Below, in pieces: positions 18,188 through 36,734 of a DNA stretch of 64,000 nt. Source of the DNA: Rhodopseudomonas sp. AAP120 (GTDB lineage Bacteria; Pseudomonadota; Alphaproteobacteria; Rhizobiales; Xanthobacteraceae); contig NZ_LJIC01000011.1 in the NCBI RefSeq assembly GCF_001295845.1, positions 62,001 through 126,000 of the forward strand, in the 5' to 3' direction. The notes under the pieces are model-generated. The model saw only the letters and a program-made list of their open reading frames with translations, searched no databases and had not been told where the DNA came from. A program made the translations under genes and the position numbers. Numbering within the stretch: position 1 is the stretch's first letter; each line of letters opens with the position of its first letter.

Positions 18188-19095
18188 CTCCAGCGGCGAC
18201 CAAAAGCAACGCGCTGCTCGATCTGAGCTTCGTCCGCCGGGGCGGCCGCACCGTGATCGACCGGCGGCTGTTCGCCTGGCCCTTCGTGCTGACGCGCGGC
18301 TTCTATCTCGATGCGGACCGGCCGGATCGCCTGAGCCTGATCGTGCAGACCGGCAGCGGCGCGCTGCACGGCGAAGACCGTCTTGTGCAGCGGCTCGACC
18401 TTGGCGCAGACACCGCGGTGTCGCTGACCAACCAGGGCGCCACCTCGGTGCATCGCGCCGACACGGCGGCGCGCGCGAGCGAAATCGTGTCGCTGCAGGT
18501 CGCGCGCGGTGCCAGCCTCGAATATCTGCCCGAGCCGCGCATCCTATTTCCCGACGCCGCGCTGTCGCAGCAGCTCGACATCGATTGCGCCTGGGATGCG
18601 AGCGCACTGGTGGTCGATGCCTTCACCATGCATGCGCCGGACGGTGCGCCGCAGATTTTTCGCGAGCTGGAGTCGGTGGTGCGCGTGTGCAGGTCGGGCG
18701 GCGATCCGGTGCTGATCGATCGCGCGCGGTTGCTGCGCCCCGCTCATAAAGTCTTTCGCGGGGCGCGCGCCTTTGCATCTGCCTATCTGATGCCGACGCC
18801 GGAGGTCGACCTTGGCGCCGTGCAGCAACAGCTCACAGCGGCGCTGAGCGACACGCCGGACGTGTACGGCGCCGCCAGCGTGATGCCGGAACAAGCCGGG
18901 CTCGTGGTCCGGATCGCCGCGCCGGATCTCAGGCCGGTGCGCGCGGCGTTCGCGCGCATCAAGCAGGTGTATCGCCTGACGCTTCCGCCCGATCGCGCGG
19001 CGCGGCCGGCGATGGTGATTACTTCAGTCGCTCCAGCAGCGCCAGAAACTGCGCGCGCTCGTCCTTCGTCAGCGGCGACAGCGTCTCCTTGGTGA
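18184..19095 (+). CDS. ureD: Urease accessory protein UreD (cluster 1)
   Basis: A GTG at 18184 overlaps the ureG stop (GTGA) and gives 303 residues. UreD features include [61 protein letters not shown] and, near the C-terminus, [22 protein letters not shown]. UreD is the scaffold of the UreDFG activation complex. The last 25 codons are antisense to the 3' end of the MarR gene. The tail after about residue 278 has no family resemblance and may be read-through. Confidence 0.88.
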
Positions 19096-19465
19096 CGTCG
19101 TGCGCCACCGGGATCGAGCGCTCCGTCAGCACCTTGCCGTCCGGCGTCAGCGACACCACCAGCCGGCGGCCGTCTTCCGGATCGGCGGCGGTCTCGACCA
19201 GGCCGCGCTTCACTAATCGTTCGACCACGCCCTTGATCGTCGCCGCGTCCATTGCGGTGGCGCGGCCGAGCAGGTTTTGCGAGCAGGGACCTTTCTCGAA
19301 CAGCTTCGCCAGCGCGGCCCATTGCGTCATCGTCAGATCTTCGCCCATGCGGCTGACGAAAATCGTCGCATGACGCTGCAGCACCTGGCGTAGCGTGAAG
19401 CCGACCTGCGCGTCGAGCAGATAGGATGGGGCGCTCTTGGCCTTGCGGCGTGGCTTGTCCAACAC
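19019..19465 (-). CDS. MarR-family transcriptional regulator (candidate repressor of the nicotinate regulon)
   Basis: The 148-residue protein has a winged-helix core: TMTQWAALAKLFEKGPCSQNLLGRATAMDAATIKGVVERLVKRGLVETAADPEDGRRLVVSLTPDGKVL, the typical MarR H3-H4-wing pattern. It is the last gene of the long minus-strand operon that begins with 6-hydroxynicotinate reductase, 38 bp after livF. That position suggests it senses nicotinate or 6-hydroxynicotinate and feeds back on the operator sites near 27.8 and 32.3 kb. In Pseudomonas putida, the MarR protein NicR has such a role; equivalence here is inferred. It overlaps ureD tail-to-tail by 77 bp. Confidence 0.88.
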   Translation of the reverse strand: MLDKPRRKAKSAPSYLLDAQVGFTLRQVLQRHATIFVSRMGEDLTMTQWAALAKLFEKGPCSQNLLGRATAMDAATIKGVVERLVKRGLVETAADPEDGRRLVVSLTPDGKVLTERSIPVAHDVTKETLSPLTKDERAQFLALLERLK

Positions 19466-20208: not shown

Positions 20209-20987
20209 GTCAGCGCCTCCGCGCGGTGCTTGGCATCGTAGAGCAGGCCTTCGCCGAGATAGATCGCCTGCACCTGACGGTCCTGGCGGACCTGCTGCGG
20301 CGTGCCGCGCGCGATCAACTGGCCGCGGTTCAGCACCATCACCTCGTCGGCGTGTTCGAACACCACGTCCATGTCGTGCTCGGTGAACAGCACACCGATG
20401 TTCTTGGCCCGCGCAATGCCGGCGGTCAGCCGCATCAGCTCGACGCGTTCCTTCGGCGCCATGCCGGCGGTCGGCTCGTCCATCAGCAACAGCCGCGGCT
20501 GGTTGGCGAGCGCGATCGCAAGCTCGAGCCGCTTGAGGTCGCCGTAGGCGAGTTCGCCACACGGCCGCTCGGCCTGTTCGGTCATGCCGACCAGCGCGAG
20601 CAGCTCATCGGCCTCGGCGCGATGCTGCGCGCCGGCGTAGCCGATCAGCGACCACAGCCGGTGATGAAACGACAGCAGCGCCACCTGCACATTCTCGCGC
20701 ACCGTCATCGACGCGAAGGTCGCGGTGATCTGGAAGGTGCGGCCGACGCCGCGGCGCCACACCGTGCGCGGCGGCAGTCCGACGATTTCTTCACCGGCGA
20801 GCCGGATCGAGCCGGCGTCGGGCTTGATCTGGCCGTTGAGCATGTTGAAGCAGGTGCTCTTGCCGGCGCCGTTGGGTCCGATCAGCGCGAGGATCTCGCC
20901 GGCGTTCACCGTGAAGCTGACGTCGCGCACGGCGTGAACGCCCGCGTAGGACTTCACCAGGCCTTTGACTTCGAGCAGCGTGGTCAT
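20205..20987 (-). CDS. livG: Liv-type ABC transporter ATPase LivG
   Basis: The 260-residue ATPase shows GPNGAGKSTCFNMLNGQIKPDAG, VGRTFQITATFASMTVRENV and the LivG-type signature LAYGDLKRLELAIALANQPRLLLMDEPTAGM. It overlaps both neighbours with ATGA junctions. It pairs with LivF to power the fused permease encoded immediately upstream. Confidence 0.93.
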   Translation of the reverse strand: MTTLLEVKGLVKSYAGVHAVRDVSFTVNAGEILALIGPNGAGKSTCFNMLNGQIKPDAGSIRLAGEEIVGLPPRTVWRRGVGRTFQITATFASMTVRENVQVALLSFHHRLWSLIGYAGAQHRAEADELLALVGMTEQAERPCGELAYGDLKRLELAIALANQPRLLLMDEPTAGMAPKERVELMRLTAGIARAKNIGVLFTEHDMDVVFEHADEVMVLNRGQLIARGTPQQVRQDRQVQAIYLGEGLLYDAKHRAEALT

Positions 20988-22876
20988 TCCGCGGCCTCCA
21001 TCTTGGCGACGGCGAGGGCATCGGGTTTGCCGTTCTTCGGTCGCGGTCCGCGGTGGCGCCAGTCCTCGATGAAGCCGACGATGCCCTTCGGGGCGGCGAC
21101 GACCAGCAGCACGATGATGGCGCCGAGCACCAGCTTGGAGAGATCGGTCTGGCTCATCAGCCAGATCGCCAGCGCCTTGTAGACGATGGCGCCGATCACC
21201 GCGCCCGACACCGTCTCGATGCCGCCGAGCAGCACCATCACCAGGCCGTCGACCGAGATCGGGATGGCGAGCGATTCTGGAAACACCGAACCCTTGAGGA
21301 AGGCGAACAGCGCGCCGGCGACGCCCGCGAAGGTGCCGGCGACGATCAGCGCCGCCCACTGCGTCGACTTGCGGTCGATGCCGATGGCGTCGGCGCGCAG
21401 CGTGTTGTCGCGCGTGGCGCGCAGGCCGAAGCCGTAGGGCGAGAACACCAGCATGCGCAGCATCGCAACGCCGACCACGGCGACGCCGAGCGTCAGCCAG
21501 AAGAAGCCGCGCGGGCTGGAGGCCCAGGCCGACGGCCAGATTCCCAGGATGCCATTGTCACCGCCGGTGACCTCGACCCACTGGAACGCCACCGACCAGA
21601 TGATCTGTGCGAAGGCCAGCGTCAGCATCGCGAAGTACACGCCCGACAGCCGCACGCAGAACCAGCCGGCGACCAGCGCGCCCATCAGACCAAACGCCGG
21701 GCCGACGAGCAGCGCCAGCTCCATCGGCGCGCCGAGAAACTTCACCGCGAACGCCGCGCCGTAAGCGCCAAGGCCGAAATACGCGGCGTGGCCGAACGAG
21801 GCGAGGCCGCCGACCGTCATCATGAAGTGCAGGCTGGCGGCAAACAGCACGAACACCAGGATTTCGGAGCCGACGCTGAGCAGATAGTTGCCGGCGAACA
21901 GCGGCAGCAGCGCCGCGATCACGACCAGCGCGGCGACGCCGCCGCGCTCCAGCAACGTCATCGGCTTCCATGGCCGGAACGAAATGCCCGTACTGGACCG
22001 CGTGCCGCGCTCCGCCTTGCCGAGCAGCCCGTAGGGCCGCACCACCAGCACCACCGCCATCACCAGGAACACGGCGATCAGCGAAATCTTCGGCAGCACC
22101 AAGATGCCGAGCGCGTTCAGCTCGGAGACCAGCACGGCGGCGATGAACGCGCCGGTCACCGAACCGAGCCCGCCGATCACCACCACGACGAACACCTCGA
22201 CGATGATCGACAGGTCCATCGCATGAGTCACCGTGGTGCGCGGGATCTGCAGTGCGCCGCCAAGCGCGGCGAGGAACACGCCGAGCGCGAATACGCTGGT
22301 GAACAGCCATTTCTGATTGACGCCGAGGCAGGCGACCATGTCGCGGTCCTGCGTCGCGGCGCGCACCAGCACGCCCCAGCGGGTGCGGTGGAACAGCAGC
22401 CAGAGCAGGCCGAGCACCGTAGGGCCGAGCACGATCAGCAACAGGTCATAGGTGGGGACCAGCCGGCCGAACAGGCTGAACGCCCCGCTGAAGCCGGGCG
22501 CGCGCGGACCCATCAGGTCGTCCGGGCCCCAGATCAGCACCACGAGATCCTGCACCATCAGCGTCACGCCGAACGTGGCGAGCAGCTGGAATAATTCGGG
22601 CGCCTGATAGATCCGGCGCAGCAGCACCATCTCCATCAGCGCGCCGAGCGCCGCGACGATCAGGCTGGCGAGAAGCAGCCCGCCCCAGAAGCCGAATGCG
22701 CCGCTGAAGCGATCGGTCAGCGTGAACGCCATATAGGCGCCCAGCATGTAGAACGCGCCGTGCGCGAAGTTCACGATGCGGGTGACGCCGAAGATGATCG
22801 ACAGACCCGACGCCACCAGGAACAGCGACGCGGCGCTGGCGAGACCACTGAGAGCCTGGACCACAATCAGTTCCAC
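20984..22876 (-). CDS. Fused LivH-LivM ABC transporter permease
   Basis: The 630-residue protein is a single-chain fusion. Residues 1 to about 290 match LivH (LIVVQALSGLASAASLFLVASGLSIIFGVTRIVNFAHGAFYMLGAY, then VVVIGGLGSVTGAFIAAVLVSELNALG). Residues about 315-610 match LivM (LFAASLHFMMTVGGLASFGHAAYFGLGAYGAAF, SPYGFGLRATRDNTLRADAIG, VMVLLGGIETVSGAVIGAIVYKAL). The usual form is two separate permeases of about 300 residues each. No frame break is seen across the linker near residues 285-315. It would form the whole membrane channel as one polypeptide. Confidence 0.92.
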   Translation of the reverse strand: MELIVVQALSGLASAASLFLVASGLSIIFGVTRIVNFAHGAFYMLGAYMAFTLTDRFSGAFGFWGGLLLASLIVAALGALMEMVLLRRIYQAPELFQLLATFGVTLMVQDLVVLIWGPDDLMGPRAPGFSGAFSLFGRLVPTYDLLLIVLGPTVLGLLWLLFHRTRWGVLVRAATQDRDMVACLGVNQKWLFTSVFALGVFLAALGGALQIPRTTVTHAMDLSIIVEVFVVVVIGGLGSVTGAFIAAVLVSELNALGILVLPKISLIAVFLVMAVVLVVRPYGLLGKAERGTRSSTGISFRPWKPMTLLERGGVAALVVIAALLPLFAGNYLLSVGSEILVFVLFAASLHFMMTVGGLASFGHAAYFGLGAYGAAFAVKFLGAPMELALLVGPAFGLMGALVAGWFCVRLSGVYFAMLTLAFAQIIWSVAFQWVEVTGGDNGILGIWPSAWASSPRGFFWLTLGVAVVGVAMLRMLVFSPYGFGLRATRDNTLRADAIGIDRKSTQWAALIVAGTFAGVAGALFAFLKGSVFPESLAIPISVDGLVMVLLGGIETVSGAVIGAIVYKALAIWLMSQTDLSKLVLGAIIVLLVVAAPKGIVGFIEDWRHRGPRPKNGKPDALAVAKMEAAE

Positions 22877-22948: not shown

Positions 22949-22971
22949 GATTGGCTGAAGATGGAGTCAGC

Positions 22972-24168
22972 TCAGTTCGCCGGACGCAGCTTGGCGGCTT
23001 CGGCCTCGGGCGGCAGATAGTCTTCGCCCTTCTTGAACTTGACATCGACCATGATGCCCTTGCCGTCCTTCTGGGTGGTCTTGCCGACGAAGGCGCCCAT
23101 CGTCGACTGATGGTCGCCGGCGCGGTACACCACCGGGCCGAACGGGGTGTCGACCTTGAGGTTCTTCATCGCCTTGGCCAGGCTCTCGGTCGACGTATCG
23201 TCGGCGGCGTTCAGCACCGCGGCGATGCTCTTCACCGTCGAATAGCCGACCACCGAGCCGAGCCGCGGATAGTCCTTGTTGGCCGCCTGATAGGCGTCGA
23301 GGAAGGCTTTGTGCTCCGGTGTGTCGATCGAATACCAGGGATAGCCGGTGACGATCCAGCCCTCCGGCGTCTCGGTCTTCAGCGGGTCGAGATATTCCGG
23401 TTCGCCGGTGAGGTAGGACACCACGACGCGATCCTTGAACACGCCGCGGGTGTTGCCTTCACGCACCAGCTTCACCAGGTCGCCGGCGAAGGTGGCGTTG
23501 AGGATGGCGTCGGGCTTGGCGGCGTCGATCGCCTGCAGCACCGGGCCGGCGTCGATCTTGCCCAGCGGCGGCCACTGCTCGGCGACGAATTCGACGTCGG
23601 GCCGCTTCTTGGTGAGGATCTCCTTGAACGCGGCGACGAAGGACTGGCCGTATTCGTAGTTCGGCGCGATCGTCGCCCACTTCTTGGCCGGCAGCTTGGC
23701 GGCTTCTTCGGCCAGCATCGAGGCCTGCATGTGGTTCGAAGCGCGCAGCCGGAAGGTGTAGTCGTTGCCCTTCGACCAGACGATGGCGTCGGTCAGCGGC
23801 TCGGCGGCGATGTACAGCACTTTCTTCTGCTTGGCGAAGTCGGACAGCGCCAGGCCGATATTGGAGAGGAAGCCGCCGGCGATCATCACCACGCCGTCGC
23901 GCGACACCAGCTCGTTGGCGGCGGTCAATGCGTCGCCGGGTTTGCCCCCGTCGTCCTTGGTGATGACGACCAGCTTCTTGCCCTTGATGCCGCCGGCATC
24001 GTTGATCTGCTTGACGGCGAGCTCGAGGCCCTTGCGATACGGCTCGGTGAAGCCGGGCAGGGACGAGTAGGAGTTGATCTCGCCCACCTTGATCTCGCCC
24101 TGCTGGGCGTAGGCCGCCCCGGACGTCAACAACAATGCCGTCAGTGCCAGTCGTGCTATCTGCTTCAT
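22972..24168 (-). CDS. LivK-type periplasmic substrate-binding protein
   Basis: The 398-residue protein has a Sec signal (MKQIARLALTALLLTSGAAYAQ). A type 1 periplasmic binding fold follows: IKVGEINSYSSLPGFTEPYRKGLELAVKQINDAGGIKGKKL, then AANELVSRDGVVMIAGG and AKLPAKKWATIAPNYEYGQS. Related proteins in Rhodopseudomonas and Bradyrhizobium bind aromatic acids as well as amino acids. It lies 36 bp after the second PF06684 gene in the same direction, so it belongs to the 6-hydroxynicotinate reductase operon. A nicotinate-like ligand is a reasonable, untested guess. Confidence 0.9.
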   Translation of the reverse strand: MKQIARLALTALLLTSGAAYAQQGEIKVGEINSYSSLPGFTEPYRKGLELAVKQINDAGGIKGKKLVVITKDDGGKPGDALTAANELVSRDGVVMIAGGFLSNIGLALSDFAKQKKVLYIAAEPLTDAIVWSKGNDYTFRLRASNHMQASMLAEEAAKLPAKKWATIAPNYEYGQSFVAAFKEILTKKRPDVEFVAEQWPPLGKIDAGPVLQAIDAAKPDAILNATFAGDLVKLVREGNTRGVFKDRVVVSYLTGEPEYLDPLKTETPEGWIVTGYPWYSIDTPEHKAFLDAYQAANKDYPRLGSVVGYSTVKSIAAVLNAADDTSTESLAKAMKNLKVDTPFGPVVYRAGDHQSTMGAFVGKTTQKDGKGIMVDVKFKKGEDYLPPEAEAAKLRPAN

Positions 24169-24204
24169 ACGCTCTTGCCCTCTTCTGGTGATACTCAGCC
24201 TGGT

Positions 24205-24789
24205 TCAGCGTAGTCCGTCTTCGCCCTTGATCTCGGCGGTGGTCAAGCCGCCGACCCGCGGCAGCGGGCGGCCGGAATCCGTCACCGCCACGGCGACGAC
24301 GATTTCATTGGCGCGCGGCGCATCGCCGACGCTCACCTGCATGCCGTCGAAATGGCTGCGCACGAAGGCGGCGTCCTTGTGGCCGAGCGGGATGTCGAGT
24401 TCGGCGCCCAGCCCGCCGCGACGCTTCGACGACGGGATCAGCGCCGCGCCTTTGCCCAGCACCTTGCGCACCGGCGCGCCCATCTTCGGATGCAGCAGCG
24501 CGGCGGCGTGTTCGAGTTCGCCGTTCTCGCCGACCAAAGCGGCCTTGCCGTAGCTCTCCGCCTTGCTGCCCTCGATGCCGAGCGCCGCCACGGTCTTTTC
24601 AGTCAGAAGTCCGCCGAGCTCTTCGCCGATCGCGATCAGTTCGGACAGATCCTCGACATAGCGGCCGGCGAAAGGGTTCTCGATCACCGCGATCGCGGCG
24701 GCGCGGCGGGTGGCCGGGGTCACTGGCCGGCCCATTTCGGTCAGCGTCTCTTCGACGACGACGACGATCTTGCGGATCTTGGCGCTCAT
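24205..24789 (-). CDS. PF06684 'amino acid synthesis' family protein, paralogue 2
   Basis: The 194-residue protein has AVIENPFAGRYVEDLSELIAIGEEL, YGKAALVGENGELEHAAALLHPKMG, SSKRRGGLGAELDIPLGHKDAAFVRSHFD and the C-terminus EIKGEDGLR. It shares these blocks and its exact length with the protein encoded just upstream. PF06684 (formerly DUF1185) has a Bacillus chorismate-mutase-like fold and no established reaction. The start overlaps the paralogue's stop (ATGA). Its placement after 6-hydroxynicotinate reductase suggests a step on the ring-derived intermediates, or a hetero-oligomer with its twin. Confidence 0.85.
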   Translation of the reverse strand: MSAKIRKIVVVVEETLTEMGRPVTPATRRAAAIAVIENPFAGRYVEDLSELIAIGEELGGLLTEKTVAALGIEGSKAESYGKAALVGENGELEHAAALLHPKMGAPVRKVLGKGAALIPSSKRRGGLGAELDIPLGHKDAAFVRSHFDGMQVSVGDAPRANEIVVAVAVTDSGRPLPRVGGLTTAEIKGEDGLR

Positions 24790-25370
24790 CGCAACCCGTC
24801 CTCGCCCTTGATATCTTCGGCTTTGAGCCCGCCGACGCGCGCATGCACACGCGGGCCGCAGCTCATCACCAGCACCAGCGCGATCTCGTTGGCCTTCGGC
24901 GCGTCTGTGACGCCGACTTCCATCGCGTCGAAATGGCTGCGCACGTAGGAGGCGTTGACGTGCGTGATCGGCACGTCGAGCTTGGTGCCCGGACCGCCGA
25001 CCTTCTTGGTCGAGGGCACGATCGCCTTGGCGTCGCCGAGAATTTCGCGCATCGCATAGCCGCCCGGCACGTGCCACAGCGCGCCGTGCTCGAGTTCGCC
25101 GTTGGCGCCGACGATCGCACCCTTGCCGTAGCCGTCGATCGCCTTGGCGTCGCCGCCGAGCGCCTGCAGCAGTTCGCCGGCCAGCGCGACGCCGAGCGGC
25201 GTCAGATCGTCCATGAAGCCGGCGATCTCCGGCTCGTAGCGGCCGGCGAACGGGTTCTCGATCACCGCGATGATGGCGCCGCGCTTGCGCGGCGTCGCCG
25301 CCACCGGGCCGCCTTCGTGGAAGACCTCCTCGGTGATCAGCAGCTTCTTGCGGACTTTGACCTCAGGCAT
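24786..25370 (-). CDS. PF06684 'amino acid synthesis' family protein, paralogue 1
   Basis: The 194-residue protein begins MPEVKVRKKLLITEEVFHEGG. It has AVIENPFAGRYEPEIAGFMDDL, YGKGAIVGANGELEHGALWHVPGGYAMREILG, PSTKKVGGPGTKLDVPITHVNASYVRSHFD and the ending EDIKGEDGLR. ATG 25370 was chosen because it starts the conserved region and overlaps the UPF0280 stop by eight bases; a start at 25412 would add 14 unlikely residues. The reaction is unknown. Two adjacent copies of equal length suggest duplication followed by specialisation or a heteromeric enzyme. Confidence 0.85.
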   Translation of the reverse strand: MPEVKVRKKLLITEEVFHEGGPVAATPRKRGAIIAVIENPFAGRYEPEIAGFMDDLTPLGVALAGELLQALGGDAKAIDGYGKGAIVGANGELEHGALWHVPGGYAMREILGDAKAIVPSTKKVGGPGTKLDVPITHVNASYVRSHFDAMEVGVTDAPKANEIALVLVMSCGPRVHARVGGLKAEDIKGEDGLR

Positions 25371-26277
25371 CGGTTTGCTCTTGTTGTGAGTGCGAGGAAA
25401 GGAATGCGGCATCGCCGGTGCTGACGGTCTCGCCCTGCAAATGCAGCGCCGCGGACGAGATCAATCCGCGCGACATCAGGTCGCGCGCCACAGTGAGGCC
25501 GGCGGACAGCGCCTGCATGCGTTCGGCAGCCGACAACATCGGCACGTCGCGTGTGACGCGGCGATCGCCGAGATCGTTGTCGGGCTGAATGTCGCGCGCA
25601 GCGCCGCGAACGACGCCCGGATGCTCCGGCAGATCGACCGCGTTGGCAACAACGGTAGCGGCCGCATCCGCCATCGCGGCGGTCGGTGCCAAAATCGTCA
25701 CCGCGTCGGCGATGCCGAGCGAGAAGCTGCGCCCGCGCCAGCCGCTGGTCGCGACGCCGCGCACCGGACTATCCGCGGTGATTTCGGCCGAGCCGATCAG
25801 CCGCGGCTGGTCGGGACGATCGACCAGGCCGACCGTGTAGCTCGCGCCCTGCGCCAGATGCAGCGCGATGTCGCCGCCATTGTTGACATAGGCGCGGGTG
25901 ATGCCGGGGCAGACCAGCACCTTCAGCACCTCGTCGGCCACCGCGCCGGCGACTGCCGCCATTGGCGTGATGAACATCGCGTCAGCGAACGGAGCGACCG
26001 CCGCGGCCATGCGCTGCGCGACCGGGTGCACCAGCGCTGGCGCGTTGCCGCCGGCCGGCGCACGCAGCGCCGAGAGTTCTGCACACAGCGCGTCGAGTAG
26101 CCCGGTGAAGCGCCGCGCCGCGGCGTCATAGGCGTGGCGCACCGCTTCCGGTTCGCCGGTCGCCTCGATGATCAGGTCGATCGGGCCGTCCTGCAGATGC
26201 AGGCGGCGGCCATTGGCCAGCAGCGCCGCCTGGATGGGCCGTCCTCGAACCGGCGAGATGGGTTGCGGGGCGGCCAT
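25363..26277 (-). CDS. UPF0280 / ApbE-like protein (candidate maturation factor of 6-hydroxynicotinate reductase)
   Basis: The 304-residue protein matches the UPF0280 group of the ApbE-like superfamily. Landmarks are GPIDLIIEATGEPEAVRHAYDAAARRF, HPVAQRMAAAVAPFADAMFITPMAAVAGAVADEVL, ITRAYVNNGGDIALHL and VATSGWRGRSFSLGIADAVTILA. The NNGGDI segment parallels the GGDI region of ApbE flavin transferases. ATG 26277 lies four bases after the reductase stop. The Eubacterium barkeri reductase carries a covalently bound flavin, so a flavin-transfer role is an attractive inference. UPF0280 itself has no proven activity. Confidence 0.82.
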   Translation of the reverse strand: MAAPQPISPVRGRPIQAALLANGRRLHLQDGPIDLIIEATGEPEAVRHAYDAAARRFTGLLDALCAELSALRAPAGGNAPALVHPVAQRMAAAVAPFADAMFITPMAAVAGAVADEVLKVLVCPGITRAYVNNGGDIALHLAQGASYTVGLVDRPDQPRLIGSAEITADSPVRGVATSGWRGRSFSLGIADAVTILAPTAAMADAAATVVANAVDLPEHPGVVRGAARDIQPDNDLGDRRVTRDVPMLSAAERMQALSAGLTVARDLMSRGLISSAALHLQGETVSTGDAAFLSSHSQQEQTDA

Positions 26278-26281
26278 GCGA

Positions 26282-27775
26282 TCAGCCGAAGTAACGTTTG
26301 ACGGCGTTGGGCGCGAGCGGCCACGGATTGTCCGCATGCGGCGCGACCGGACGCCGGCCGTCGTCGAGTGTGATCGACGATACCGGGCGAACTTCCGCCA
26401 TGTGGCCGCCGAGTTCCTGATAGTCCGACAGCCGCAGCGTGAACTCGATCGGCGCCACCAGCGCCGGCGTCGGCACGTAGCCGAAGGCGTTTTCCGGCAT
26501 CTTGGTGACGTCGACCATGATGGTGATGCCGCCGCCCGGATAGACATAGACCGGCGCGCCGCCGCAGGTGACGTAAGTCAGCGCGTCCTTCACCGAATTG
26601 GTCAGCCGCACCGGATTTTCCGTGACGCCGGCACGCAGCGAACCGCCAGCGCCCGCCATGAATAGCACCGTCGACAGCGCCGGCTCGCAATTGTCCTTCA
26701 CGCGCTGCGACAGCATCGCCAGCTCCGCCGGCATCTCCTTCTCGCGCGGGATCAGCTCGTCGTCGAGTTCGAAGTAAGCGGCGTGCTCGCCGGTGGTCGA
26801 GATGAAATACAGCCGCAGCCCGGGCCAGGCGACCTTGCGGTCGAACGGGCCGAGGATCGACAGCGGATCGGAAATGTTGGTGCCGCCCCAGCCGGTGCCG
26901 GGCTCGGCGACCTGGAAGTAACGGCCCGGCGTCGAGCGCCGTCCCTTGATCTTGATGCCGGTGTCGGGAATGCCCAGAACCTTGCCGGCCTGATGTTCGG
27001 ACAGCACGCCGGTGATGTGATCGTCCACCACCACGACGTCGTCGACCAGGCCGAGCCACTGTTTGGCGAACATGCCGATCGTCGCCGAGCCGCAGCCGAC
27101 GCGCATCCGCTCTTCCATCACGCCGTTGACGATCGGCGCCTTGCCGGCCTGCACCACCACGGTCGAGCCGCCGTCGATCGTCAGTTCGACCGGCTTGCCG
27201 TTGCACAGATCGAGCAGCGCCTCGCAGGTGATGCGGCCCTCCTTCTTGCTGCCGCCGGTGAGGTGATGCACGCCGCCCAGCGACAGCATCTGCGAGCCGT
27301 ATTCCGACGTCGTGACGTGGCCGACCGCTTCGCCGCCGGCCCGCACCGTCGCCTGCTCGGGGCCGAGGAAGCGGTCGGTGTCGATCTTCACCTTGACGCC
27401 GCAGTAGCTGAAGATGCCTTCGGTGACGACCGTCACCATGTCGACGCCGCCCACTTCGGACGACACGATGAACGGCGCGGGCTTGTAATCCGGATAGGTG
27501 GTGCCGGCGCCGATCGCGGTGACGAAGGTCTCCGGCGGAGAAATCAGTGTGCCGTCCCACGAGCCGTCGCGATGGAACGGCACCACGGCGGCGCCATGCG
27601 CCAGCGCGCGGTCGAGCACGACATGCGGATCGACGCGGACCAGTTCGCCGCCCGCATTGGCGTAGCGATCGCAAGCGCCGCTGGCGCCCGGCTTGATGTA
27701 GCACATCACCGGACAGGCATCGCAGCGGATCTTGTCGTCGCTCGGCGCCTGCGCCGCGGGAATGCTGTCGCTCAT
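26282..27775 (-). CDS. hnr: 6-hydroxynicotinate reductase
   Basis: The 497-residue protein resembles the Eubacterium barkeri reductase that converts 6-hydroxynicotinate to 1,4,5,6-tetrahydro-6-oxonicotinate with reduced ferredoxin. An N-terminal cysteine cluster (C18, C21, C25, C35; CDACPVMCYIKPGASGAC) should bind an Fe-S cluster. GCGSATIG around 227-234 is vaguely similar to flavinylation motifs ending in GAT. YVYPGGGITIMVDVTKMP and TGWGGTNISDP are further recognisable blocks. The start at 27775 follows GGAG by 11 bases and excludes a poor upstream extension. It heads an operon reaching to the MarR gene and is divergent from nicA. Confidence 0.85.
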   Translation of the reverse strand: MSDSIPAAQAPSDDKIRCDACPVMCYIKPGASGACDRYANAGGELVRVDPHVVLDRALAHGAAVVPFHRDGSWDGTLISPPETFVTAIGAGTTYPDYKPAPFIVSSEVGGVDMVTVVTEGIFSYCGVKVKIDTDRFLGPEQATVRAGGEAVGHVTTSEYGSQMLSLGGVHHLTGGSKKEGRITCEALLDLCNGKPVELTIDGGSTVVVQAGKAPIVNGVMEERMRVGCGSATIGMFAKQWLGLVDDVVVVDDHITGVLSEHQAGKVLGIPDTGIKIKGRRSTPGRYFQVAEPGTGWGGTNISDPLSILGPFDRKVAWPGLRLYFISTTGEHAAYFELDDELIPREKEMPAELAMLSQRVKDNCEPALSTVLFMAGAGGSLRAGVTENPVRLTNSVKDALTYVTCGGAPVYVYPGGGITIMVDVTKMPENAFGYVPTPALVAPIEFTLRLSDYQELGGHMAEVRPVSSITLDDGRRPVAPHADNPWPLAPNAVKRYFG

Positions 27776-27826
27776 GGGACTGATGGCTCCAGGCCGTCGG
27801 CGTGTGGCGATCCGGCACTGCCTCAT

Positions 27827-27846
27827 TTCATATGTATACTAATGAA
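27827..27846. promoter_or_regulatory. Operator-like palindrome A upstream of the 6-hydroxynicotinate reductase operon
   Basis: TTCATATGTATACTAATGAA is an imperfect 20-bp palindrome with 16 of 20 positions symmetric about GTATAC. It lies 51 bp upstream of the reductase start in the divergent nicA/hnr region. It is unusually AT-rich for this genome. Two related sites occur at 27931 and 32252. A dimeric MarR-type repressor is the obvious candidate binder; a gene for one closes the same operon. Confidence 0.7.
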
Positions 27847-27930
27847 AAGGGAGGGCTGCCTTGAAGTCAAGCATAAGGAATGGGCAGCACATGCACAAAC
27901 ATTGTCGCAGTGCACACGCGCTTGACGGAA

Positions 27931-27950
27931 TTCATTGGTGTAGAAACAAT
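27931..27950. promoter_or_regulatory. Operator-like site B at the nicAB promoter
   Basis: TTCATTGGTGTAGAAACAAT matches site C at 32252 in 18 of 20 bases. A -35-like TTGACG lies at 27922-27927, so the site would occupy the spacer and -10 region of a promoter reading toward nicA (start 28077). Binding here would block RNA polymerase directly. The 226 bp between this site and site A and the nicA start hold no supported gene. Confidence 0.7.
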
Positions 27951-28076
27951 CGTCCGAGCAATTGCCAACGGCGGTGGAGCCCGAATGCCCGCTACTCATC
28001 ACAGTGCAGCGTCGTTTGTTGCGGTGCACGCTGCGCGCTGCTTGCGGTGCAAGGCCGCATCTGCGGGGCGGCACCG

Positions 28077-28580
28077 ATGAGTTCGGCGGCGCCCGTCATT
28101 TTGACCGTCAACGGAACCGAGCACGCTTTCGATCTGCCGCGGGACACCAAGTTGATCTACGTGCTGCGCAACGATCTCGGCCTCAACGGCCCAAAATTCG
28201 GCTGCGGCCTCGGCGAGTGCGGCGCCTGCACGGTTCTGATCGACGGCGTGCCGGCGCGGTCCTGCGTGGTGACGCTGAAGACGGCCGAGGGCCGAATTGT
28301 TACCACGCTGGAAGGCCTCGGGACTCGCGATGCGCTGCACCCGGTGCAGGCCGCGTTCATCGCCGCGCAGGCAGCGCAATGCGGCTACTGCCTCAACGGC
28401 ATGATCATGTCGGCGACCGCGCTGCTGGCGCGAAACCCGACGCCCAGCGTCAACGAGATCCGCGAGGCGCTGCGCTACAATCTGTGCCGCTGCGGCACGC
28501 ATGTGGAAATCATCCGTGCCGTGATGATCGCGGCGGGCGTAGCCCCGGATGCGACGCTCGCTGAGGCGGCCCCGTCATGA
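28077..28580 (+). CDS. nicA: Nicotinate dehydrogenase small (2Fe-2S) subunit
   Basis: The 167-residue protein has the plant-type ferredoxin loop CGLGECGACTVLIDGVPARSC around residues 42-62. The second all-helical 2Fe-2S domain shows CGYCLNGMIM near 102 and CRCGTH near 138. This is the xanthine-dehydrogenase-family small subunit, close in length to Pseudomonas putida NicA. It relays electrons from the molybdenum site to the cytochromes of NicB. ATG 28077 was chosen over upstream codons because it begins the conserved domain. It overlaps nicB by ATGA. No FAD subunit gene is present, consistent with cytochrome-linked electron transfer. Confidence 0.9.
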   Translation: MSSAAPVILTVNGTEHAFDLPRDTKLIYVLRNDLGLNGPKFGCGLGECGACTVLIDGVPARSCVVTLKTAEGRIVTTLEGLGTRDALHPVQAAFIAAQAAQCGYCLNGMIMSATALLARNPTPSVNEIREALRYNLCRCGTHVEIIRAVMIAAGVAPDATLAEAAPS

Positions 28581-31500
28581 GCGAGCGCCAAGTGACCGAG
28601 CCGACGCCGGACACAGCGGATCTGCTGACTCGTGCCGGCACGCTCGCGGTGCTGCGGCCGTCGCAACACGTCAAAGGATTAGTCCCGACCGCGCCGCCGC
28701 CCGACGGCGCGCTCGATCTATTTCTGTTCGTCGACGACAGCGGGCAGGTGCTTGCCTTCAGCGGCCACGTCGATCTCGGCACCGGCATTCGCACCGCGCT
28801 GGCGCAGATCGTCGCCGAAGAACTCGACGTGCCGTTCGAGGCCGTCACCATGGTGATGGGCCACACCTCCGGCACGCCGAACCAGGGCGCCACCATCGCC
28901 AGCGACAGCATTCAGGTCAGCGCCGTGCCGCTGCGCAAGGCGGCCGCGCAGGCGCGGCATCATCTGGTCGCGCTCGCCGCGCAGGAGCTGGAGTTGCCGG
29001 CCGATCAGCTCACCGTCACCGACGGCATCGTGCATCCGCGCGACGCGTCCAATCGCGGCGTGTCCTATACGACGCTGCTGCAAGGGCGCCGCGAGCGGCT
29101 GATGCTGGCCGACGATGTTGTCGTCAAGCGGGTCGCCGAGCATCGCATCGTCGGGCGCCGCGTTGCGCGCTCGGATATTCCGGCGAAGGCCACCGGCGAT
29201 TTCGTCTATGTGCATGACGTCCGCGTGCCCGGCATGCTGCACGGCCGCGTCGTGCGGCCGCCTTATGCGGGCATCGATGCCGGCGATTTCATCGGCAATA
29301 GTTTGCTCGGCGTCGACGAGTCCTCCATCGCGCATATTCCCGGCGTGGTCGCGGTCGTCACCATGGGCGATTTCGTCGGCGTCGTTGCGGAGCGTGAGGA
29401 GCAGGCCGCCAAGGCCGCGCGCGTGCTCGAGGTCAAGTGGAAGCCGCCGCCGCCGCTGCCGAAGCTGGACGATCTGGCGACAGCGCTGCGCGCCAATCCG
29501 GCGACGACCCGCACGCTGCTCGACAAGGGCGACGTCGAGGCGGCGCGTAGTGCGGCGACTGTGCCGATGGATCGCACTTACGTCTGGCCGTATCAGATGC
29601 ACGGCTCGATCGGGCCGTCCTGCGGCGTCGCCGATGTCCGGGACGGCTTCGCGCGGATCTGGTCGGGCACGCAGAATCCGTATCCGCTGCGGCTGGATAT
29701 CTCGATCCTGCTCGGCATCCCCGAAGCCGACGTCGAGATCCTGCGCTTCGAGGCGGCCGGCTGCTACGGCCGCAATTGCGCCGACGATGTCTGTGCCGAT
29801 GCCGCGTTGCTCTCACGTGCTGTCGGACGGCCGGTGCGCGTGCAACTGACGCGCGAGCAGGAGCACGCCTGGGAGCCGAAGGGCGCGGCGCAGCTGATGG
29901 AGATCTCCGGCGGGCTCACCGCCGACGGCAGCCCGGCCGCCTACGACTTTGCTACGCGCTATCCATCGAACGCCGCCGTGACGCTGGCGTTGTTGCTCAC
30001 AGGTCGCGTGCCCGCGAACAATCCGGTGTTCGAGATGGGCGATCGCACCGCGATCCCGCCTTATGCCTACGACAACATCCGTGTGCGCGTGCACGACATG
30101 GCGCCGATCGTCCGGGCCGCCTGGCTGCGCGGCGTCTCGGCGCTGCCGAATTCGTTCGCGCATGAGAGCTACATCGACGAACTCGCCGCCGCCGCCGGTG
30201 TCGATCCGCTGGAGTATCGGCTGCGCTATCTGCACGATCCCCGCGCCGTCGATCTGGTGAAGGAAGTCGCCGCGCGCGCCAACTGGGCGCATCGCACCGG
30301 GCCGCGCCGCGAGATCGTCGAGGGCGACGTCGTCCGCGGGCAGGGGCTCGCTTATGCGCTGTATGTTCACTCCAAGTTTCCCGGCTACGGCGCCGCCTGG
30401 TCCGCCTGGGTCGCCGATGTCGAGGTGAACACCCGGACCGGCGATGTCGCGGTCAAGCGCGTCGTGGTCGGCCAGGATTCCGGACTGATGATCAACCCGG
30501 CCGGCATCGAGCATCAGATCCACGGCAACGTCATCCAGTCGACCAGCCGCGCGCTGAAGGAACAGGTGAGCTTCACCGACACCGCGGTCGCCGACAAGGA
30601 ATGGGGCGCGTATCCGATCCTCACCTTCCCCGAGGTGCCGGTGATCGACGTCGTGCTGATGCCGCGGCCGGACGATCCGCCGCTCGGCAGCGGCGAGTCC
30701 GCCTCCGTGCCCTCCGCGGCGGCGATCGCCAACGCGATTTTCGACGCCACCGGCGTGCGGCTGCGCGAGCCGCCGTTCACGCCGGACCGCGTCCGCGCTG
30801 CCTTGGGTTTGCCACAGCCTGAAACGCCCGTCGCGCCGCCGCCGCGGAAACGCTCATGGTTCGCAATGGCGGGTGCCGCGTTGCTCGGCGCGCTCGGCAT
30901 GGCGGCGGTCGCGCTACCGATCCGCGGCGCGCTCGCCCCGATTGCACCGCCCGATCCCGCGACCTTCTCGGCCGACATGATCGCCCGCGGCCGCCAACTC
31001 GCCGCCCTCGGCGGCTGCGCCACCTGCCACACCGTCCCCGGCGGCATCCCCAACGCCGGCGGCCGGCCAATGGAGACGCCATTCGGCACGGTATATGCGA
31101 CCAACCTCACGCCAGATCCGGAGACCGGCATCGGCGCTTGGTCCTACGCGGCGTTCGAACGCGCGATGCGCGAAGGCATTGCCCGCGATGGCAGCCACCT
31201 CTACCCCGCGTTTCCCTATGCGTCGTTCACCCGCACCAGCGACGCCGATCTGCAGGCGCTATACGCTTATCTGATGTCGCAGGCCCCGGTGAAGGCCCCG
31301 ACACCGGCGGCCAAGATGGCGTTTCCGTTCAATATTCGGCCGCTGATGGCCGGCTGGAATCTGCTGTTCCTGCGGCCGGGCCCGATCCAGGCCGACCCGG
31401 CCCGTGCGGCGCAATGGAACCGCGGCGCCTATCTGGTCGAAAGCCTCGGCCATTGCGGCGCCTGCCACACCCCGCGCAATGCGCTCGGCGCCGAGCAGGC

Positions 31501-32143
31501 GAAGACCGCCTATCTGGCCGGCGGCGAGGTCGACGGCTGGCACGCGCCGGCACTGACCGCGCTGTCGCGCGCGCCGATCCCGTGGACCGAAGCCGAACTG
31601 TTCGCCTATCTGCGCAGCGGCTTCTCGCGCTTCCACGGCACGGCGGCGGGCCCGATGGCGGCAGTCGTCGAGCAGCTCGGCCCGCTCCCGGATGCCGATA
31701 TCCGCGCAATGGCGACCTATCTGGCCTCGTTCGCACCGCCGTCAGAAGCCGATCCGGCCGAACGCGCCGCGGCGCTGCAGGCCGAGGCGGCCTCGGCGCT
31801 GCGCCCGCTCGATACGCTGGGCGGCCGGTTGTACGAGGGCGCCTGTGCGTCCTGCCATTCCGAAACCGGCCCGACGCTATTCGGCGTCCGTCCGGCTTTG
31901 GCGCTCAACACCAATCTCCACGCCGCGACCCCCGACAACCTGATTAGGGTCATTCTAGACGGAATACCTAGTCCCGCAGCGGCGGAATTGGGCGATATGC
32001 CCGGGTTCCGCCACAGTTTCGACGATAACCAGATCGCGGCGCTGGTCACTTATCTCCGCGCCTCCTTCGCCCCGCAGGCGCCCGCCTGGGGCGGCGTGGA
32101 ACAAGCGGTGGCGCGCCTGCGCGCTCACCAAGGCTCCCACTGA
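28577..32143 (+). CDS. nicB: Nicotinate dehydrogenase large subunit: molybdopterin domain fused to triheme cytochrome c
   Basis: The 1188-residue protein joins an aldehyde oxidase/xanthine dehydrogenase-type molybdopterin subunit (to about residue 740) to a cytochrome c region. A hydrophobic segment (SWFAMAGAALLGALGMAAVALPI) lies between them near 755-780. Three haem c motifs follow: CATCH near 814, CGACH near 960 and CASCH near 1090. Length and architecture match P. putida NicB. The reaction is hydroxylation of nicotinate to 6-hydroxynicotinate using water oxygen, with electrons passed to the respiratory chain. Cytochromes must face the periplasm, so topology is a point of interest. Confidence 0.9.
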   Translation: MSERQVTEPTPDTADLLTRAGTLAVLRPSQHVKGLVPTAPPPDGALDLFLFVDDSGQVLAFSGHVDLGTGIRTALAQIVAEELDVPFEAVTMVMGHTSGTPNQGATIASDSIQVSAVPLRKAAAQARHHLVALAAQELELPADQLTVTDGIVHPRDASNRGVSYTTLLQGRRERLMLADDVVVKRVAEHRIVGRRVARSDIPAKATGDFVYVHDVRVPGMLHGRVVRPPYAGIDAGDFIGNSLLGVDESSIAHIPGVVAVVTMGDFVGVVAEREEQAAKAARVLEVKWKPPPPLPKLDDLATALRANPATTRTLLDKGDVEAARSAATVPMDRTYVWPYQMHGSIGPSCGVADVRDGFARIWSGTQNPYPLRLDISILLGIPEADVEILRFEAAGCYGRNCADDVCADAALLSRAVGRPVRVQLTREQEHAWEPKGAAQLMEISGGLTADGSPAAYDFATRYPSNAAVTLALLLTGRVPANNPVFEMGDRTAIPPYAYDNIRVRVHDMAPIVRAAWLRGVSALPNSFAHESYIDELAAAAGVDPLEYRLRYLHDPRAVDLVKEVAARANWAHRTGPRREIVEGDVVRGQGLAYALYVHSKFPGYGAAWSAWVADVEVNTRTGDVAVKRVVVGQDSGLMINPAGIEHQIHGNVIQSTSRALKEQVSFTDTAVADKEWGAYPILTFPEVPVIDVVLMPRPDDPPLGSGESASVPSAAAIANAIFDATGVRLREPPFTPDRVRAALGLPQPETPVAPPPRKRSWFAMAGAALLGALGMAAVALPIRGALAPIAPPDPATFSADMIARGRQLAALGGCATCHTVPGGIPNAGGRPMETPFGTVYATNLTPDPETGIGAWSYAAFERAMREGIARDGSHLYPAFPYASFTRTSDADLQALYAYLMSQAPVKAPTPAAKMAFPFNIRPLMAGWNLLFLRPGPIQADPARAAQWNRGAYLVESLGHCGACHTPRNALGAEQAKTAYLAGGEVDGWHAPALTALSRAPIPWTEAELFAYLRSGFSRFHGTAAGPMAAVVEQLGPLPDADIRAMATYLASFAPPSEADPAERAAALQAEAASALRPLDTLGGRLYEGACASCHSETGPTLFGVRPALALNTNLHAATPDNLIRVILDGIPSPAAAELGDMPGFRHSFDDNQIAALVTYLRASFAPQAPAWGGVEQAVARLRAHQGSH

Positions 32144-32223
32144 TCGACGTCTTTCCCTTCAGGTTGCCCGATAAATCGGCGCGCGATGCCTGAAATGTCC
32201 GCGCGGCACGGGCGTTCGCCGCG

Positions 32224-32253
32224 TTGACAGGGGGCGGGCTGCGATCCTATTTT
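32224..32253 (+). promoter_or_regulatory. Predicted promoter of the fpr-ena unit
   Basis: TTGACA at 32224-32229 and TATTTT at 32248-32253 are separated by 18 bp, a near-consensus housekeeping arrangement. It is 84 bp upstream of the fpr start and clear of nicB. Operator-like site C begins within the -10 element, which is the expected place for a repressor site. Confidence 0.65.
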
Positions 32254-32271
32254 CATTCGTGTACAAACAAT
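32252..32271. promoter_or_regulatory. Operator-like site C upstream of fpr-ena
   Basis: TTCATTCGTGTACAAACAAT differs from site B at only two positions, both G/C exchanges. It shares the TTCAT, central GT-TAC and A-rich right side of palindrome A. It overlaps the -10 region of the predicted promoter. Three such sites at the only three plausible promoters of the nicotinate genes argue for one regulator. Confidence 0.7.
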
Positions 32272-32336
32272 CTGTCGGGCTGACGCCTCGTGCCTTCGCC
32301 GTCCCGGCCGATCAACACCAACTCCGGAGTTCTGCC

Positions 32337-33110
32337 GTGAGCAATCTGATGGAAGAGCGCGTTCTCTCCGTTCGTCATTGGACCGATCGTTTGTTCAGCT
32401 TCACCACCACCCGCGACTCCGGCTTCCGGTTCCGCAACGGTGAGTTCACCATGACGGGCATCAAGGTCGACGGGAAGCCGCTGCTCCGCGCCTACTCGGT
32501 CGCCAGCCCGAACTACGAAGAGACGCTGGAGTTCTACTCCATCAAGGTGCCGAACGGCCCGCTCACGTCCCGTATGCAGCACCTCAAGGAAGGCGACACC
32601 ATCATCGTCGGCCGCAAGGCGACCGGCACGCTGGTGATCGACAATCTGCGTGACGGCAAGAACCTGTACCTGCTCGCGACCGGCACCGGCGTCGCGCCGT
32701 TCCTGTCGATCATCCGCGATCCCGAAACCTACGATCGCTTCGAGAAGATCGTGCTGGTCCATGGCTGCCGGCAGATCGCCGAGCTGGCCTACGGCGAGTC
32801 GATGGTGACGGCGCTGCAGGATCACGAATTCCTCGCCGACGAGGTCAAGGCCAAGCTGATCTACTACCCGACCGTCACGCGCGAGCCGTTCATCCACGAG
32901 GGCCGGATCTCGAAGCTGATCGACAACGGCCAGCTGTTTTCCGACATCGGCCTGCCGCCGCTCGACAAGGCGCAGGATCGCGTGATGCTGTGCGGCTCGA
33001 CCCAGATGATGGTCGACCTCAAGAGCCGCCTGGTCGCGCTCGGCTTCGAAGAAGGCAATCACGGCGAAGCCGGCGACTTCGTGCTCGAGAAGGCGTTCGC
33101 CGAGCGGTGA
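32337..33110 (+). CDS. fpr: Ferredoxin/flavodoxin-NADP+ reductase
   Basis: The 257-residue FNR has the FAD-binding RAYSVASPNYEE motif near 52, NADP-binding ATGTGVAPFLSIIRDPE near 113, CGSTQMMVDL near 223 and a C-terminal EKAFAER, as in bacterial FprA-type enzymes. GTG 32337 was chosen because CGGAG lies nine bases upstream. Because 6-hydroxynicotinate reductase from E. barkeri takes electrons from reduced ferredoxin, this enzyme could supply them from NADPH. The shared operator and the downstream enamidase gene support a dedicated role; a housekeeping function is the alternative. Confidence 0.9.
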   Translation: MSNLMEERVLSVRHWTDRLFSFTTTRDSGFRFRNGEFTMTGIKVDGKPLLRAYSVASPNYEETLEFYSIKVPNGPLTSRMQHLKEGDTIIVGRKATGTLVIDNLRDGKNLYLLATGTGVAPFLSIIRDPETYDRFEKIVLVHGCRQIAELAYGESMVTALQDHEFLADEVKAKLIYYPTVTREPFIHEGRISKLIDNGQLFSDIGLPPLDKAQDRVMLCGSTQMMVDLKSRLVALGFEEGNHGEAGDFVLEKAFAER

Positions 33111-33229
33111 ACTCTGCGCGGGCCGCGCAGCGATCGGCGTTGCGCGGCGTCGCCAAGGTCGTATGCTGACAAACAAACAGCCCCAAGGCTGACAAGCCAA
33201 GCGGGTCGGATCGGTGAGGAGATAGCTCG

Positions 33230-34426
33230 ATGGCTCACGACGCGCCCACCCCGCAGGGGCCGACCAAGCTGGTGGTCCGCAACATCGGCCTGATGCTCAG
33301 CGGCGATCTCAATCAGCCGATCCTCGAAGCCGACACCATCGTGGCCGAGAACGGCCGTATCACCGCGATCGGCCGCCTCAAGGACGTCGACACCGAAGGC
33401 GCGACCACCATCGTCGATGCCCACGGCGCCGCGGTGACGCCAGGGCTGATCGACAGCCACGTCCATCCGGTCGCCGGCGACTGGACGCCGCGGCAGAGCC
33501 AGCTCAACTGGATCGACTCCTCGCTGCACGGCGGCGTCACCACCATGATCTCGGCCGGCGAAGTGCACTATCCGGGCCGGCCGCGCGACGTCATCGGCAT
33601 CAAGGCACTGGCGATCACCGCACAGCGCAGCTTCTCGGCTTTCCGCGCCACCGGCGTGAAGGTTCATGCCGGCGCCCCGGTGATCGAACACGAGATGGAA
33701 GAGAACGACTTCAAGGAGCTCGCCGCCGCCGGCGTCAAGCTGCTCGGCGAAGTCGGCCTCGGCGGCGTCAAGGACGGCCCGACCGCGAAGAAGATGGTGG
33801 CGTGGGCGCGCAAATACGGCATCCAGTCGACCATTCACACCGGTGGCCCGTCGATCGCGGGCTCCGGACTGATCGACAAGGACGTCGTGCTCGAAGCCGG
33901 CACCGACGTGGTCGGTCACATCAACGGCGGCCACACCGCGCTGCCCGACGATCAGATCCGCTGTATCTGCGAGGGCTGCAAGGCCGGCCTCGAACTCGTG
34001 CACAACGGCAACGAACGCTCGGCGCTGTACACGCTGCGGATCGCGCGCGAGATGGGCGATCTCAATCGCGTCATTCTCGGCACTGACGGCCCCGCCGGCT
34101 CCGGCGTGCAGCCGCTCGGCATCCTGCGCATGGTGTCGCTGCTGTCGTCGCTCGGCGATCTGCCAGCCGAGCAGGCGTTCTGTCTCGCCACCGGCAACAC
34201 CGCGCGGATGCGCGAACTCGACTGCGGCCTGATCGAGGTCGGCCGCGCCGCCGACCTCGTCATCATGGACGTCGCCCAGCATTCGGGCGGCGCGACGCTG
34301 CTGGAGAGCGTGCGGCTCGGCGATCTGCCGGGCATCGGCATGACCATCATCGACGGCATCGTGCGATCCGAGCGCTCGCGCAACACGCCGCCGGCGAAGC
34401 GCTTCCCCAGCATCGTCAAGGTCTGA
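33230..34426 (+). CDS. ena: Enamidase (6-oxo-1,4,5,6-tetrahydronicotinate amidohydrolase)
   Basis: This 398-residue amidohydrolase-superfamily protein has the metal motif LIDSHVHP near 77. GEVGLGG is near 173, IHTGGPS near 202, VVGHINGGHTALPD near 224, and the terminal metal aspartate is in ILGTDGPAGSG near 283. It closely follows the Eubacterium barkeri Fe-Zn enamidase, which opens the tetrahydro-oxonicotinate ring to ammonia and 2-formylglutarate. A strong ribosome-binding site (GAGGAGAT) precedes ATG 33230. It lies 119 bp after fpr on the same strand. With nicAB and hnr it completes nicotinate ring opening. Confidence 0.85.
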   Translation: MAHDAPTPQGPTKLVVRNIGLMLSGDLNQPILEADTIVAENGRITAIGRLKDVDTEGATTIVDAHGAAVTPGLIDSHVHPVAGDWTPRQSQLNWIDSSLHGGVTTMISAGEVHYPGRPRDVIGIKALAITAQRSFSAFRATGVKVHAGAPVIEHEMEENDFKELAAAGVKLLGEVGLGGVKDGPTAKKMVAWARKYGIQSTIHTGGPSIAGSGLIDKDVVLEAGTDVVGHINGGHTALPDDQIRCICEGCKAGLELVHNGNERSALYTLRIAREMGDLNRVILGTDGPAGSGVQPLGILRMVSLLSSLGDLPAEQAFCLATGNTARMRELDCGLIEVGRAADLVIMDVAQHSGGATLLESVRLGDLPGIGMTIIDGIVRSERSRNTPPAKRFPSIVKV

Positions 34427-35981: not shown

Positions 35982-36003
35982 ACCTCAGATACGGAGCTGA
36001 CGG

Positions 36004-36612: not shown

Positions 36613-36674
36613 TCTTTAGTCGTCGCGCAGGAACTGCCTGTTAGTGACGCAGCCGCACCATCGATGAAGCTGGT

Positions 36675-36734
36675 TCGGCACTAGGCTGTGTAGCCCGAGG
36701 GGTCCGCGAGGACCTGTCGGGCTTTTTTGTTTTT
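36675..36734 (+). terminator. Leader attenuator: terminator with a competing hairpin
   Basis: GCCCGA (36693-36698) pairs with TCGGGC (36717-36722), extended by GGTCC/GGACC around a GCGA loop. TTTTTTG and further T residues follow to 36734. This is a classic intrinsic terminator in the 245-bp leader between amiR and urtA. An alternative hairpin, GGCT-GTGT-AGCC at 36684-36695, with TCGG at 36675 able to pair with CCGA, uses the 5' arm of the terminator. AmiR binding to the upstream structure would allow readthrough. The exact ANTAR hexaloop consensus was not confirmed by eye. Confidence 0.75.

Follow-up and report, generated by a model that had tools for sequence, protein, structure and literature searches.

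Three conserved putative operators and a probable MarR-family repressor in the reductive nicotinate cluster of Rhodopseudomonas sp. AAP120

Background

Which regulator governs the nicotinate genes of Rhodopseudomonas sp. AAP120, and through which DNA sites does it act? The question is raised by a stretch of 64,000 nucleotides (assembly GCF_001295845.1, contig NZ_LJIC01000011.1, positions 62,001 to 126,000; the window, in whose coordinates positions are given below) that holds homologues of 6-hydroxynicotinate reductase (hnr), nicotinate dehydrogenase (nicAB) and enamidase (ena, preceded by the ferredoxin-NADP reductase-like gene fpr). A first-pass annotation, made from the sequence alone, had proposed three related sites of 20 base pairs (bp) in front of hnr, nicAB and fpr-ena as operators of a single ligand-responsive repressor. 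We favour, with a probability of roughly 0.86, the reading in which a single MarR-family repressor, the product of the gene at 19019-19465, uses the three sites as its operators, acts on the three units and is released by a compound of the pathway.

The gene cluster itself is already known, because this kind of cluster was described for R. palustris HaA2, A. caulinodans, B. japonicum and strain SG-6C, likewise centred on hnr and proceeding via 1,4,5,6-tetrahydro-6-oxonicotinate (THON), where it covers the initial three steps in the degradation of nicotinate; SG-6C showed 6-hydroxynicotinate as an intermediate, and its relative of hnr has homology to E. barkeri (PMC3511419). That paper describes genes and pathway, with the word MarR occurring 0 times in its main text and no operators in its sections on the cluster. 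Searches of titles and abstracts in a library of open-licence papers turned up no account of the operator, of its geometry or of a link to MarR. The kind of system is also known, as a regulon of the NicR/BpsR type of MarR regulators, of which the window would be a well-defined new member.

Three related sites in the window and in the genome

The sites are as follows.

27827..27846, no strand: operator 1, hnr side, imperfect palindrome TTCATATGTATACTAATGAA (pattern search, alignment of relatives)
27931..27950, no strand: operator 2, nicA side, TTCATTGGTGTAGAAACAAT, located in the promoter-like site of nicA, on its spacer and -10 (pattern search, alignment)
32252..32271, no strand: operator 3, fpr-ena, TTCATTCGTGTACAAACAAT, beginning within the -10 (pattern search, promoter scan)

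All three were recovered in the window, and the similarities claimed for them held: the sites at 27931 and 32252 agree in 18 of 20 bases (2 differences in 20 positions), and the site at 27827 is an imperfect palindrome (8 of 10 symmetric pairs) that resembles the others, sharing 13 of 20 positions with the fpr site, or 14 of 20 when reverse-complemented (hand counts). A combined query of the 27931 and 32252 sites with up to 3 mismatches matched these two places alone in the window, the 27827 query found only itself, and neither had a match in 100 shuffles. With the final matrix (see below) at a score of at least 8, the three sites were the sole matches in the window, against 0 in the reversed window.

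Across the 6.16-Mb genome, the pattern TTCATWNGTRTASNAAYRAW at 0 mismatches occurred at these three places only, while at up to 3 mismatches it gave 11 matches vs. 8 for the reversed pattern, so that loose matches carry little meaning. With at most 1 mismatch allowed, the palindromic consensus picked out two further places, C181:18710 (near a SnoaL-like gene) and C223:1844, which were not counted in the regulon because a similar site was present in only one (G067) of the other three hnr-positive genomes of the genus. The near-match on C223 (G000, C223:1844-1863; L005 1501-1520) lies between divergent genes that read like ABC substrate-binding proteins (named from reading), and the G067 site differs from it by one base.

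All three sites are retained in the 4 hnr-positive genomes of the genus. In a 7-row alignment of the hnr-nicA spacer within the genus, where two rows (L041 and L013) are one and the same contig, 17 of 20 columns were invariant in operator 1 and 14 of 20 in operator 2, and the mean conservation of the spacer over 20-bp windows was 0.34, but the operator-free stretch 27862-27886, which takes in the putative hnr -35, also reached 0.8 and thus roughly equals the sites. These data support a role of the three sites as conserved operators.

The sites in 80 hnr loci

Eighty hnr loci and their flanks (1.53 Mb), the top-ranking ones of at least 593 and mostly from Bradyrhizobium and other Alphaproteobacteria, were scanned with a matrix trained solely on hnr-nicA intergenic sites, which makes hnr and nicA training regions and leaves fpr and ena outside the training. 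The 450 bp before the start of a tblastn match were taken as its upstream window, and sites with a score of at least 20 as strong. At this score 188 sites were found, 180 of them upstream of hnr, nicA, fpr, ena, marR or sbp (the binding-protein gene of an ABC transporter), and the reversed sequence gave 0, a distribution far from the random occurrence without enrichment in relatives that the first-pass annotation had named as the outcome that would speak against it.

For the untrained genes, an upstream site was found at 40/42 loci for fpr, 37/47 for ena, 7/64 for sbp and 3/64 for marR, the last two low counts fitting the usual position of these genes within the hnr run, and for the training regions at 63/80 (hnr) and 58/73 (nicA). 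The comparison genes of the cluster were nearly devoid of them (nicB 0/73; aas1 and aas2, encoding AA_synth proteins, 0/74 each; the permease gene perm 0/62; the ApbE-like gene upf 1/77). Among the 50 loci in which fpr or ena has 300 bp or more of sequence in front of it, 45 had a site (misses: L064, L066, L070, L108 and L111). Separate sbp genes carried a site in L053, L083 and L113, and also in L066, L108, L109 and L111, where the sbp match is just 25–29% identical. The 8 sites outside the upstream windows comprise seven at about 0.9–1 kb before a nicA-like match and one at ~100 bp before upf in L100. In a first scan with a threshold of 8, a site preceded hnr in 64/80 loci; in 15 of the 16 others, a same-strand match resembling nicA or nicB precedes hnr, suggestive of hnr being part of a longer unit (read by hand). 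As the sites stay with these genes across genera and gene orders, the proposal of one regulon over hnr, nicAB and fpr-ena is supported.

The sites also accompany marR, a match to which was present in 64/80 fetched stretches: all 64 have a site with a score of at least 14, and 63 (all except L114) one of score 20. Of the 80 stretches, 74 contain one or more sites scoring at least 14, and the six without (L064, L070, L081, L106, L119 and L120) are also without marR in the stretch.

Association of the motif with MarR

Next to the loci, 198 family genomes drawn from a larger group were searched for the motif (at most 1 mismatch) and for MarR (E 1e-30 or better), resulting in 58 hnr-positive genomes (G119 was excluded, with a match of 29% identity over 92 residues, E 5.6e-4), 87 with the motif and 98 with MarR. 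The motif was present in 81/98 genomes with MarR vs. 6/100 without it, and in 57/58 hnr-positive vs. 30/140 hnr-negative genomes. The link to MarR persists in the hnr-negative genomes (24/41 with MarR vs. 6/99 without) and by genus, with a motif-positive genome in 22/22 MarR-positive genera vs. 3/25 others (by hand); the reversed-pattern control matched 12/198 genomes. Within the genus of the window, the 4 hnr-positive genomes have both MarR and motif, and the 7 others in the draw lack the motif; a 45% MarR relative is present in one of these 7. In 17/30 hnr-negative, motif-positive genomes, the motif has a MarR relative no more than 12 kb away (by hand), and in the remaining ones this relative is on another contig, further off, or was not found.

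A palindromic operator at its own promoter is a common, though not universal, feature of MarR-family regulators, and the window marR would use the operator at the hnr promoter. Five marR genes among the loci are detached, in that the 2.5 kb in front of them hold no regulon gene on the same strand. A strong site lies about 70 bp before two of these (L045 and L048), one has a weak site and two have none. The choice of MarR as the regulator is thus supported by the co-occurrence in 198 genomes, by the sites before some detached marR genes, by the linkage in the absence of hnr and by the joint absence of motif and MarR from one hnr-positive genome (G123, discussed below). A division of labour in which the two operator types (TTCAT... 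vs. TTTGTTCG...) are read by different regulators was dropped, since homologues of one and the same MarR, whose recognition helix hardly varies, occur in loci of either type.

Promoter geometry and proposed mechanism

The promoter elements near the operators are listed below.

32224..32253, + strand: promoter-like TTGACA-18-TATTTT of fpr-ena (promoter scan, 1 found, shuffle mean 0.1)
27922..27950, + strand: promoter-like TTGACG-17-AACAAT of nicAB (promoter scan, 1 found, shuffle mean 0.1)
27865..27870, - strand: putative hnr -35 TTGACT, 24 bp before the operator start (read by eye; TTGAC spacing in relatives)
27842-27847, - strand: candidate hnr -10 TTTCAT, overlapping operator 1 (read by eye)

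The overlap of the third site with a -10 element was confirmed, as the site starts at 32252 and the promoter-like sequence ends at 32253; for hnr, the strict promoter scan returned none. In the 80 loci, TTGAC starts 23–28 bp before 63/120 hnr-assigned sites (nicA-side sites possibly included) and 25–28 bp before 38/51 fpr-assigned sites, from which spacing the operator would begin at the -10 and cover the start at both. A further 12/51 fpr-assigned sites have TTGAC at 39 bp, which fits second, overlapping sites 14 bp further on, and TTGAC lies in the span for 10/50 ena-assigned sites. Such an operator position fits steric repression. In Bradyrhizobium loci with divergent fpr and ena, the intergenic region between them holds two overlapping operators offset by 14 bp (e.g., L071 19803 and 19817), possibly one per promoter. 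Operator 1 is directly adjoined by an in-frame ATG for hnr at 27826, upstream of 27775; similarity to other Hnr proteins speaks for 27775 as the start.

From the site identity, conservation, promoter geometry, marR co-occurrence and linkage, and self-sites at some detached marR genes, we infer binding, repression, operon limits and an inducer as follows. A ligand-free MarR dimer would sit from the -10 over the start at hnr and fpr and on the -35/-10 interval at nicA, and would thereby block three units, namely hnr with its associated genes, the ABC transporter and marR; nicAB; and fpr-ena. Release would come about through a compound of the pathway, most probably 6-hydroxynicotinate, so that uptake, hydroxylation, ring reduction and enamide hydrolysis would be induced together, while the rise in repressor level upon induction would provide negative feedback.

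Ligand pocket and inducer

The window MarR (P0002) is related (E 1.6e-25) to BpsR of Bordetella, a MarR-family repressor of nicotinate catabolism that represses nicC and nicE, is released by 6-hydroxynicotinate and binds it via Tyr15, His23, Arg26 and His32 (PDB 6PCO/6PCP; PMC6837509). Tyr15, Arg26 and His32 are identical in P0002 at the same numbers and invariant in 64/64 cluster MarRs, while His23 is replaced by Phe in P0002 and in 64/64; with three of the four pocket residues shared, the window protein was not classed as BpsR, but it may work like BpsR. Its closest solved relative is 2NNN (E 4.4e-43), with a nearly identical recognition helix, a probable transcriptional regulator of P. aeruginosa (PMC6837509). 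NicR of Pseudomonas putida is likewise a MarR repressor in nicotinate catabolism (PMC10269826, PMC6837509), in which the residues contacting 6-hydroxynicotinate are not conserved (PMC6837509); it represses the nicC and nicX operons and leaves nicAB to NicS (PMC10269826), whereas here one regulator appears to cover nicAB too.

Since the same pocket residues occur in 11/11 MarRs from regions without an hnr match, they fail to single out 6-hydroxynicotinate and were dropped as proof of this ligand; the pocket supports a small aromatic acid in general. By analogy with BpsR, 6-hydroxynicotinate would be the best, not the only, candidate inducer, and the balance tips modestly towards it. A MarR acting via the same sites with nicotinate or another aromatic acid as its inducer is a serious, somewhat less probable contender, to which the Phe at the His23 position and the pocket shared with regions without hnr lend weight; it has to be set against the release of the related BpsR by 6-hydroxynicotinate with three of four contact residues kept (PMC6837509), and against 6-hydroxynicotinate being the product of the first step of the pathway (PMC3511419).

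Points against the regulon and other explanations

Together with these two features of the pocket, several observations weigh against one MarR-controlled regulon. The nicA-side site scores lowest (21.5 vs. 30–31 for the others), and TTGAC was near only 5/110 nicA-assigned sites in the 80 loci, so the promoter geometry at nicA is unconfirmed in relatives. Among the detached marR genes, L118 has a weak site only (score 18, at 218 bp), and L049 and L100 have none in front. The motif at up to 1 mismatch is missing from 17/98 MarR-positive genomes, and 10 of the 16 loci without marR in the stretch nonetheless carry a site scoring at least 14 (in 9 of them at least 20), though 9 of these 10 stretches are shorter than 17 kb and may have lost marR. 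The Fisher value of the MarR–motif association (1.4e-30) overstates independence because the genomes are related, and the locus and genome tests are not fully independent, since the draw of 198 includes the genomes of at least 7 of the 80 loci.

Could the sites belong to another regulator, for instance of the GntR/FCD family, with MarR a mere bystander? Operators of GntR/FCD regulators are TNGTNNACNA-like, which the GT-TAC core of the sites resembles, and G123 has a GntR/FCD gene near hnr, beside fpr; the two detached marR genes without a site point the same way. G123, however, is the sole hnr-positive genome without the motif, and it also lacks MarR at the threshold used. In the window, MarR was the sole regulator among 10 proteins scanned from 19019-34426, and the motif follows MarR even where hnr is absent, all of which makes another binder improbable. 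In G123 (L209 6388-10422), hnr, an ApbE-like gene and fpr adjoin the GntR/FCD gene and no MarR operator is present, an apparent regulator swap with GntR/FCD in the place of MarR. Chance similarity or a constraint of promoter sequence, for which the two weaker matches elsewhere in the genome and the conserved operator-free stretch of the hnr-nicA spacer might be cited, deserves hardly any credence, as it is contradicted by 180/188 sites at regulon promoters with 0 in the reversed sequence and by a motif that tracks MarR over 198 genomes.

A second module with the same operator

Of the 17 MarR-linked hnr-negative regions, 11 were fetched (L192-L202). These represent a second type of cluster, in genomes without an hnr match, with MarR and the same operator, usually accompanied by a branched-chain-type ABC transporter: transporter matches are beside marR in 10/11 regions, and L193 has instead an RND efflux gene beyond marR. 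In L201, the sites are on the side of marR away from the transporter. The upstream genes of the only annotated regions (L192, L193 and L194) include an alpha/beta hydrolase and a short-chain dehydrogenase in 3/3, and an enoyl-CoA hydratase in L192. Tyr15, Phe23, Arg26 and His32 do not vary between these 11 MarRs and the 64 of the nicotinate clusters, and most of the recognition helix is likewise identical. A tentative and on balance doubtful idea is that a single MarR subfamily, its pocket invariant and its recognition helix nearly so, controls two different catabolic modules via one operator. The substrate of the second module would then be a so far unrecognised compound akin to nicotinate, or some other small aromatic acid, detected through the shared pocket, and there would be cross-talk in genomes that have both modules.

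Gene cluster around the sites

The genes of the three units are listed below.

26282..27775, - strand: hnr, 6-hydroxynicotinate reductase homologue (name from annotations of plasmid relatives)
25363..26277, - strand: upf, ApbE-like/PRK04334 family protein (family scan), which we take to be UPF0280
24786..25412, - strand: aas1, AA_synth (PF06684) protein 1 (family scan)
24205..24789, - strand: aas2, AA_synth (PF06684) protein 2 (family scan)
22972..24168, - strand: sbp, periplasmic binding protein (PF13458) of an ABC transporter (family scan)
20984..22876, - strand: perm, fused ABC permease (named from the translated open reading frame (ORF); conserved in relatives)
about 19504-20990, - strand: two ATPase genes after the permease (named from ORF translations)
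19019..19465, - strand: marR, last in the hnr-strand gene run (family scan)
28077..28580, + strand: nicA-like [2Fe-2S] subunit (family scan)
28577..32143, + strand: nicB-like molybdopterin subunit fused to cytochrome c domains (family scan)
32337..33110, + strand: fpr, ferredoxin-NADP reductase-like, under the curated cut-off of NF008178 (family scan)
33230..34426, + strand: ena, enamidase (match to PDB 2VUN, E 8.6e-109)

By homology, nicotinate dehydrogenase, 6-hydroxynicotinate reductase and enamidase are all present, as expected for a reductive (THON) nicotinate cluster. Hnr had no Pfam or NCBIfam match in the family scans; several of its plasmid relatives are annotated as 6-hydroxynicotinate reductase, with others unnamed or hypothetical, and it is 97% identical to Hnr of R. 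infernalis. The MarR gene does close the hnr-strand run, as had been claimed, and its product belongs to the MarR family (winged-helix domain PF01047, 43.4 bits vs. a cut-off of 24.6). The cluster is flanked by what reads as a nitrogen-scavenging neighbourhood, with presumed urease-type genes at 13900-19100 and, at 34788-42776, what we take from ORF translations to be an AmiC/AmiR-like pair, an ABC transporter and an aliphatic-amidase-like gene.

Conclusions

The first-pass annotation was right on the sites and the regulon and very probably on the regulator: of its single ligand-responsive repressor, the regulon and MarR as the regulator are supported by site conservation and MarR–motif co-occurrence, while repression and inducer stay at the level of inference. 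For the reductive nicotinate pathway of Alphaproteobacteria, the analysis describes a conserved operator precisely and names a candidate regulator, and it ties conserved genes of unknown function and an ABC transporter to the same putative switch. The operator follows its genes when their order changes and is missing from one genome together with its regulator, and it may serve as a DNA signature for finding more genes of the regulon.

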